Of a stretch of 16,011 bases of DNA, positions 1-7,913 are shown piece by piece. Within the stretch, counting starts at the first letter, position 1. Every line of letters begins with the position of its first letter. Where the stretch lies: positions 1 through 16,011 of the forward strand of contig JADFWK010000198.1 of assembly GCA_015223015.1 (NCBI GenBank). The letters are read 5' to 3'. The position numbers and the translations under genes were made by a program. The notes below the pieces were generated by a model. That model did not search any database and was not told where the DNA came from. It was given only the letters and a program-made list of their open reading frames with translations. Source of the stretch: Pseudomonadota bacterium (GTDB lineage: Bacteria > Desulfobacterota > DSM-4660 > Desulfatiglandales > B25-G16).

Positions 1-163
1 TTATATAGATGGAGCCTATGATTCTAAGGCTTAGGGCTCAATAAACCATTTTGAATCGACCCAGTAAGGGGCCATGTCATAGGGCATAACCAAAAAAAAG
101 ATACCCATATCCTGCAAGAAGCTTTGAAATCAATAGGTTAGGTTTCACTATGACGTGACTCTG
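1..163. repeat. Dispersed repeat, copy 1 (right half of a long-palindrome element, cut by window start)
   Basis: This stretch matches 7710-7874 in the same orientation along almost its whole length, with scattered substitutions and 2 extra bases in the other copy. It includes the A8 tract arm at about 82-114, which in copy 2 is the right arm of a near-perfect inverted repeat. The left half of this copy would lie upstream of the window. Two substitutions in the arm (AT at 109-110 where copy 2 has GC) would show, once the left arm is seen, whether pairing is kept. There is no coding potential. It ends about 85 nt before the rnc start codon. Confidence 0.85.
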
Positions 164-209
164 ATCCAAGTTGTACCATGAATTTCAAGAGTAACCCCTC
201 CTGATTGCC

Positions 210-7588: not shown

Positions 7589-7640
7589 ATCCGAAAGATC
7601 TGCTCAGTCCATAAGGAAGCGTCAAGGTAACGTCAAAGTC

Positions 7641-7825
7641 CAGGGCATGGGTATCTTTTTTTTGGTTATGCCCTCACATAGTTTAGATGAGTGGGCGTTT
7701 CAAAATGGTTCATATAGATGGAGCCTATGATTCTTAGGCTTATGGCTCAATAAACCATTTTGAATCGACCCAGTAAGGGGCCATGTTATAGGGGCATAAT
7801 CCAAAAAAAAGATACCCATGCCCTG
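7641..7825. repeat. Long imperfect palindrome (MITE-like element or structured RNA), core of repeat copy 2
   Basis: The outer arms 7641-7665 and 7801-7825 are perfect inverted repeats of 25 bp, including T8/A8. Pairing continues for 8 bp (7666-7673 with 7792-7799) after one bulged T at 7800. Inside, 7701-7710 (CAAAATGGTT) pairs perfectly with 7753-7762, flanked by an approximate match of GTGGGCGTTT to the complement of AATCGACCCAG. AGCCTA/TAGGCT (7722-7727 with 7735-7740) closes the tip. No transposase or open frame lies within. As RNA from either strand it would fold into one very long hairpin. Confidence 0.85.
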
Positions 7826-7874
7826 CAAGAAGCTTAAAAATCAATAGGTTAGGTTTCACTATGACATGGCCCTG
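7710..7874. repeat. Dispersed repeat, copy 2 (portion shared with positions 1-163)
   Basis: Nearly identical to 1-163 in the same orientation. The shared part starts in the inner stem of the palindrome, covers its right half, and runs on for about 49 nt past the palindrome end (through the CAATAGGTTAGGTTTCACTA segment). The conserved unit therefore includes a right flank that is not part of the inverted repeat. Similarity stops after about 7874. It lies between the convergent ends of the GNAT and RACo-like genes. Confidence 0.88.
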
Positions 7875-7913
7875 AAGAAAGCCTTTGAGGCATCGTAGCA
7901 TAACAACCTAATC

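Follow-up and report, generated by a model that had tools for sequence, protein, structure and literature searches.

The window (the whole 16,011-nt stretch of DNA analysed here, which is the complete contig C62, one of 267 contigs in the 68.5%-complete host genome G000) carries a 185-nt palindrome, and the locus raises the question of whether this palindrome is part of a mobile element or encodes a structured RNA. The original prediction described the palindrome as near-perfect, which holds for its outer arms, where 25 of 25 bp pair, and not for the entire core, whose identity to its reverse complement is 75%. Folding of window positions 7620-7880 yielded -113.3 kcal/mol against a mean of -63.6 for shuffled sequences (z = -10.8, with 0 of 200 shuffles as good), and the other strand, folded with DNA parameters, gave z = -10.6.

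Comparison of copies revealed that the palindrome is the core of a 252-bp element (window 7623-7874) that possesses two unlike ends, the 18-bp E18 and the 49-bp E50, whose termini are related in inverted orientation (CAGGG..ACGTCA.AGT). This terminal pattern has 31 exact sites in the single-contig relative G004, against 0 for the reversed control pattern. When the copies were lined up, E18 took the family form given in Table 1 and the family ending of E50 was ..CACTATGACGTG.CCCTG, while no open reading frame of at least 70 aa was found within 7623-7874. The right half of the core together with 49 nt was found again at 3-84 (96% identical) and 90-164 (91%), confirming the recurrence that had been noted at 1-163; the half unit that this seemed to define was an artefact, since the contig start truncates the copy. 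The proposal of a unit with a conserved flank on one side only was likewise rejected, as the opposite 18-bp end had been overlooked, the supposed flank is the E50 end, and a target-site duplication bounds both sides.

Table 1. Coordinates of the element, its parts and its second copy within the window.
Feature	Position	Strand	Basis
Left target-site duplication AAGGAAGCGT	7613..7622	+	8/10 identical to 7875-7884
E18 end CAAGGTAACGTCAAAGTC	7623..7640	+	Conserved end common to many copies; family form CAGGGTAACGTCAAAGTC
Palindromic core, orientation E18-A..B-E50	7641..7825	+	Arm pairing and fold; both orientations among other copies
Left core arm, 25 nt	7641..7665	+	100% complementary to 7801-7825
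Right core arm, 25 nt	7801..7825	+	100% complementary to 7641-7665
E50 end, 49 nt, ending ..ACTATGACATGGCCCTG	7826..7874	+	Common to many copies; terminus related to inverted E18
Right target-site duplication AAGAAAGCCT	7875..7884	+	8/10 identical to left duplication
Second copy, cut by contig start	1..163	+	Core remnant 1-114, E50 end 115-163
Target duplication of second copy ATCCAAGTTG	164..173	+	Identical to E18-side duplication in G003 L294

Far from being limited to the two copies 7.7 kb apart that were first noted, the element is present in about 40 copies on 37 contigs of the incomplete host genome (blast places merged), 33 of the 40 lying within 100 bp of a contig end. In G004, 91 blast places were found; several sites in that genome adjoin runs of N. 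Matches (E <= 0.001) were obtained in 20 of the 99 genomes searched, host included, the named relatives being metagenome-assembled genomes (MAGs): every one of the five genomes in the genus, 12 of the 13 further genomes in the family (two of these 12 with one weak match each), and three in another family of the order. An exact 25-mer of the element retrieved 43 stretches from MAGs titled Deltaproteobacteria, Pseudomonadota or Proteobacteria, including chromosome CP070673 (bin73), while the viral contigs of IMG/VR contained no exact E18 17-mer.

The two window copies are similar and only 7.7 kb apart, as would be expected if one had arisen from the other by local segmental duplication, yet their flanks and target duplications are unlike and some 40 copies occur genome-wide, so that we regard a local duplication as virtually impossible. 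Both findings that had been named in advance as telling against the original prediction, namely only two copies and shared long flanks, were looked for, and neither was found. The insertion at window 1-163 is shared with G003 (L294), whose copy has an E18 end and the duplication ATCCAAGTTG / GTCCAAGTTG; the former sequence is also identical to an E18 flank in G004, upstream of rnc, where the site of this insertion holds a coreless shell of about 70 bp. At the orthologous place of the main window copy, beside a gene that is 95% identical, G002 carries an element flanked by AAGAAAGCGG / AAGAAAGCGT (9/10 identical), in which most of the core and of E50 is replaced by other sequence.

Target-site duplication was assessed in 94 elements with both ends readable. 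An exact 10-bp duplication was found in 26 and a match of at least 8/10 in 49, whereas re-paired flanks gave means of 0.3 and 0.6, respectively, the latter with a maximum of 3. An exact 9-bp duplication was found in five elements and one of 7 or 8 bp in none. No position of the duplication itself stood out in the flank profile. The dispersed copies, the inverted ends and the 10-bp duplication bear out the suggestion of a mobile element. Although typically about 250 bp long, elements of 151, 219 and 286 bp also have the duplication, and so do coreless shells of 60 and 93 bp, which argues that the shell is the moving unit. A more complex arrangement was seen at G004 2111948-2112209 (L140), where AGAGGAGATG stands beside three successive ends, as if a single target duplication served two elements.

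With inverted terminal repeats, a target-site duplication, short length, no coding capacity and many copies, the family is a MITE-like, non-autonomous transposon, and it is new as a family so far as our searches go, no description having been recognised in the literature searched. We retain the label "MITE-like" because no autonomous transposon with shared ends was found in a limited search; ends shared with an autonomous transposon are a usual feature of MITEs and not a strict requirement. The locus had been set apart from a simple MITE, rightly in that it carries a separable long palindrome, and wrongly in that the supposed one-sided flank is E50 and an E18 end is present. Correia elements (CREE) insert at TA, and membership of that group, which entails a TA target duplication, does not fit the 10-bp duplication seen here. 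According to PMC2649163 and PMC10969869, the CREE of Neisseria are likewise MITE-like, with many copies upstream of genes, and inversion is reported (PMC10969869); promoters can arise at the ends of a CREE itself, whereas here the promoter-like sequence lies in the target, outside the element. Other MITEs, such as Coxiella QMITE2 and Chunjie of Geobacter uraniireducens (235 bp, with 37 further copies of 178-235 bp), are, according to the corresponding passages of PMC10969869, also short and non-coding, with inverted ends, target direct repeats, tens of copies, mostly intergenic positions and a strong hairpin. Measured against those accounts, the present family differs in its two unlike ends, its separable core that occurs both ways and also in a second shell, and its promoter phasing at E18, the distinction from Chunjie being one of description and not of sequence.

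The search for a transposase covered retrieved loci, the exact end matches that were listed and incomplete genomes, and among these no driver transposase and no autonomous partner sharing the ends was found. The CAGGG ends suggested ISAs1; however, the ISAs1-type domain PF13808 was absent in seven of eight genomes, and its single match had no close copy of the ends on the side covered, its open reading frame running off the retrieved stretch, and ISAs1 was rejected as the driver. Near 42 unpaired termini (duplicate loci included), 11 open reading frames were present, none transposase-like by eye, and no autonomous partner was found between unpaired ends. A transposase supplied in trans would presumably cut at the termini and produce the 10-bp staggered insertion. 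In two further genomes, G009 and G012 (L257, L263, L264), an E18-type terminus was observed with a different interior, the paired ends in L263 and L264 lying about 296 bp apart.

The flanks of E18 displayed a pronounced regularity. After exclusion of flanks that were shorter than 150 nt, had N in the first 150 positions or were more than 65% similar over 40 nt to a flank already retained, 112 non-redundant E18 and 122 E50 flanks remained (a looser rule gave 116 and 122). In 45 of the 112, a -35-like hexamer starts 17-21 bp outside E18: TTGACA-like hexamers (at least 5/6 matching) began at +18, +19 and +20 in 8, 29 and 7 flanks, whereas the 57 remaining positions up to +60 together held 44, a background of about 0.8 per position. 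A TATAAT-like hexamer at +40-44 was present in 42 of 112 flanks (other 5-nt bins: mean 8.8, maximum 12). It accompanied 24 of the 45 flanks with a -35-like hexamer at +17-21 and also 18 of the 67 without one (bins elsewhere: mean 5.4, maximum 9), including 11 of 39 that lacked even a 4/6 match at +16-22 (mean 3.4, maximum 5). Since the -10-like excess persists without a recognisable -35-like hexamer, the signal appears to be a promoter and not a hexamer alone. Strict two-box promoters at +17-21 were predicted in 20 of 112 flanks (shuffled mean 0.6, maximum 3), against 1, 0 and 0 when the test was displaced by 40, 60 and 80 bp; all of these promoters are sequence predictions.

Phasing was seen across genomes, with 9/25 in G002, 9/20 in G003, 10/26 in G004, 5/16 in the host, 2/4 in G001, 5/8 in G006 and 5/13 in ten other genomes pooled. 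It was alike in elements with a recognised core arm (24/61) and without one (21/51) and is, therefore, not tied to the core. None of 78 elements lay inside an open reading frame of over 900 nt, and in 58 of 77 cases the E18-side gene, as assigned by a crude ORF caller, was directed away from the element. The two window copies illustrate both outcomes: the E18 flank of the second copy, taken from the relatives, has TTGACC at +19 followed by TATATA, and the gene downstream resembles pyrR by eye, while the main copy sits between convergent genes and has no promoter-like sequence at +17-21. Under the rule of at least 5/6, 67 of the 112 E18 flanks are unphased.

On the E50 side, no sharp -35 peak was observed (12/122 at +12-16 and 9/122 at +17-21, other 5-nt windows holding 1-7; single positions reached 4 at +15 and 4 at +19). 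A -10-like hexamer at +40-44 was found in 18 of 122 E50 flanks (other bins mean 7.3, maximum 14), and 3 of the 122 had a strict promoter (shuffled 0.5, maximum 2). The idea that E50 has a spacing as sharp as that of E18 was abandoned on recount. The weaker and broader signal is compatible with some insertions in the opposite orientation, the same fixed distance being unproven for this end. At +20, the reversed hexamer TGTCAA was slightly over-represented (5 of 112 E18 and 5 of 122 E50 flanks); it has TG.CA in common with the main motif.

Two explanations of the E18 phasing were weighed. In the first, insertion itself is directed to promoters. In the second, insertion is random between genes, and selection preserves those copies that lie at about -54, since E18 binds a regulator and helps the gene. 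Class I activators sit near -62, where E18 (17 bp) would be centred, and selection is further favoured by a phase that is exact to about 1 bp and sharp for E18 only (45/112 versus 9/122 for E50), as well as by the retention of elements at orthologous sites. However, copies with an exact 10-bp duplication, which are taken to be young, were phased as often (11/24) as those with a decayed duplication of 8-9/10 (8/23) or none (18/38), with 3/5 for the exact 9-bp class; in addition, strict hits were nearly absent at +22-60 (3 over 39 positions), though there were 6 at +9-16. The similar phasing of young and old insertions points to promoter-directed insertion. The recount of the E50 flanks shifted the balance a little from targeting towards selection; even so, we consider targeting the more likely of the two, and retention by selection unlikely.

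We thus conclude that the family is probably a non-autonomous MITE-like transposon whose insertion is often directed to sigma-70-type promoters and whose core is an invertible passenger. In such a scheme, 8 bp would separate the duplicated 10 bp from the -35 box downstream of them, placing the duplication at about -53 to -44 relative to the expected transcription start, with E18 usually the end facing the promoter, and the insertion machinery would contact promoter-bound RNA polymerase or recognise promoter DNA shape. The target is likely promoter DNA with RNA polymerase. More tentatively, and with a little less than an even chance of being correct as a whole, we propose a transposition system that targets the sigma-70 promoter, probably through the bound polymerase, placing its shell about 50 bp upstream of the start, sparing the promoter and carrying a self-inverting cassette. 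Yeast Ty1 and Ty3 integrate at RNA polymerase III genes at a fixed distance from the transcription start, and host-sparing target choice is well known for yeast retrotransposons; the fixed distance is shared, whereas the present element is bacterial, DNA-transposon-like and associated with sigma-70-type promoter-like sequence. To our knowledge, no bacterial element keeps a fixed spacing to the -35 box when it inserts, and no such case was recognised in the open-access PMC literature searched. If confirmed, promoter-directed insertion would offer a direct means of testing whether a transposase recognises RNA polymerase, and the many copies would serve as markers of active promoters in uncultured bacteria.

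What, then, is the palindrome for? The second option raised at the outset, a structured non-coding RNA or regulatory hairpin under selection for pairing, is favoured by the fold (z = -10.8), by arm co-variation and by pair-keeping changes on both sides in 6 of 58 consensus pairs, as counted after aligning 21 of the 64 distinct cores, all taken on the + strand of their locus. Yet the window gave no Rfam match at the gathering threshold, the covariation term contributed only -0.83 of -65.24 kcal/mol, and mixed pairs at arm position 13 were A/C (8) as often as G/T (7), with no strand preference. The core also occurs in either orientation relative to the shell, and the few pair-keeping changes are equally explained by arm-arm copying, and template switching is reported to yield this pattern (PMC8604942). 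With no Rfam match and weak covariation, this reading was rejected as very unlikely. A bidirectional transcription terminator spread between genes seems less likely still: the long hairpin of the main window copy has T8/A8 tracts and sits between convergent genes, yet convergent gaps are not enriched among element gaps (8/77 versus 15/80 other gaps), and a frequent position is upstream of promoter-like sequence.

The core would be dispensable for movement, because coreless shells carry the same kind of duplication. It occurs in both orientations: among 65 readable elements, the arm adjoining E18 was B in 43 and A in 22 (28 versus 16 in a smaller set, with three E18/E18 and two E50/E50 copies among 64), and the core-shell junctions fall at the same place either way. 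Orientation was readable in two genomes at 14 orthologous sites, of which 6 differ and 8 agree, after leaving out groups that lie in the repeat R2, that lack a readable orientation in two genomes or that were joined through chance similarity. Two of these flips are weak (the flanks of G003 L071 match two different G004 places, and the G004 copy of G002 L327 is E18/E18). For a fifteenth site, window 1-163 versus G003 L294, agreement is deduced only from the opposite end. One pair, G004 3838416 and G001 C75, is a clean in-place inversion: the two elements have an exact 9-bp duplication and an identical 49-nt E50 in common with the core reversed, and the ortholog is the best core match, albeit by a narrow margin (187 versus 185 bits).

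The reading of all six flips as clean inversions was abandoned on account of poor ortholog ranks. At 8 of the 9 rankable orthologous sites, flipped or not, other cores match better than the ortholog, which ranked 33, 34, 8, 21, 37, 13, 13 and 58 among 91-120 cores of other genomes; four further pairs were unrankable because one core was missing. Together with E50 being sometimes more diverged than the flanks at orthologous sites, these ranks indicate that sequence exchange between copies is common, and five of the six flips could be replacement by other copies. Accordingly, a static core, with its orientations arising from independent insertions of the palindrome into the shell, from replacement or from assembly error, is a serious if doubtful possibility. 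It would account for the eight orthologous cores that are not mutual best matches, for the same core in a different shell, for the existence of coreless shells and for the 33 of 40 host-genome copies that reach contig ends, but not readily for the clean pair, with its shared duplication, identical E50 and best-matching reversed core, nor for junctions at the same place in both orientations.

In keeping with the preferred reading of an invertible passenger, the two arms within a copy are closer to each other than are arms taken from different copies, with 4.64 mismatches in 34 nt within a copy versus 5.82 between copies (55 copies, permutation p = 5e-5). The core arms would allow inversion of the centre and mutual arm correction, most simply by template switching, and may also allow the exchange of sequence between copies. 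Minute inversions at chloroplast hairpins are a comparable kind of case. Template switching between inverted repeats is reported to correct the arms and invert the spacer (PMC8604942), with arm co-variation in one copy and the intervening segment both ways, as here; the spacers there are of a few bp, whereas about 135 bp separate the perfect arms of this dispersed mobile element. With dozens of near-identical palindromes, some at orthologous sites in related species, the core provides a naturally replicated experiment on how hairpins invert, how their arms are corrected and how copies exchange sequence.

The equal-ended copies of G004, which show no visible target duplication, lie at 168315, 746635 and 1591583 (E18/E18) and at 1063947 and 2211454 (E50/E50). 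Exchange between inverted copies is a possible origin; three of the five have runs of N less than 300 bp away, and their use as proof of recombination was given up in favour of treating them as a lead.

The same core was also found beside quite different ends (GGAGCATTACCGGTTTGTTA..) in G011, G015, G016 and G083 and between yet other sequence in G013, which argues that it is a module separate from the shell. Flanks of this second shell have a 9-bp repeat in G083 (CACCCGTGG), and no flank repeat was seen at the 86-kb copy of G011. The loci of this unrelated, GGAGCATTACCGGTTTGTTA-ended shell (L056, L057, L211, L212, L213, L217 and L226) come from two bacterial families, and the core occurs both ways in it as well, the long end adjoining A in L226 and B in L213. 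At 684 kb in G011, the second-shell flanks (L251) are inverted repeats of each other over some 120 nt outside the element, indicating an inverted duplication or an assembly product, and this locus (L075) was not used as an equal-ended second-shell copy.

Other repeats are nested with the element. In the host genome and in G003/G004 (e.g. L039:92-190, L005, L134 and L126), the element sits at the centre of many copies of a second dispersed repeat of about 100 bp (GTTTGAGCCCTAAGG / CCCTAAAGGCGAGTTTTGACATCGCC.., ending CAACAGCCTG), whose own halves carry TTGACATCGC in inverted orientation. Within the core itself, other repeated sequences (CCTGGCCCAGACCTGGC.., GTCATTCTGAGGAGCGAAGCGACGAAGA..) are inserted beside the inner end of an arm in L113, L294, L037, L041 and several G002/G003 copies.
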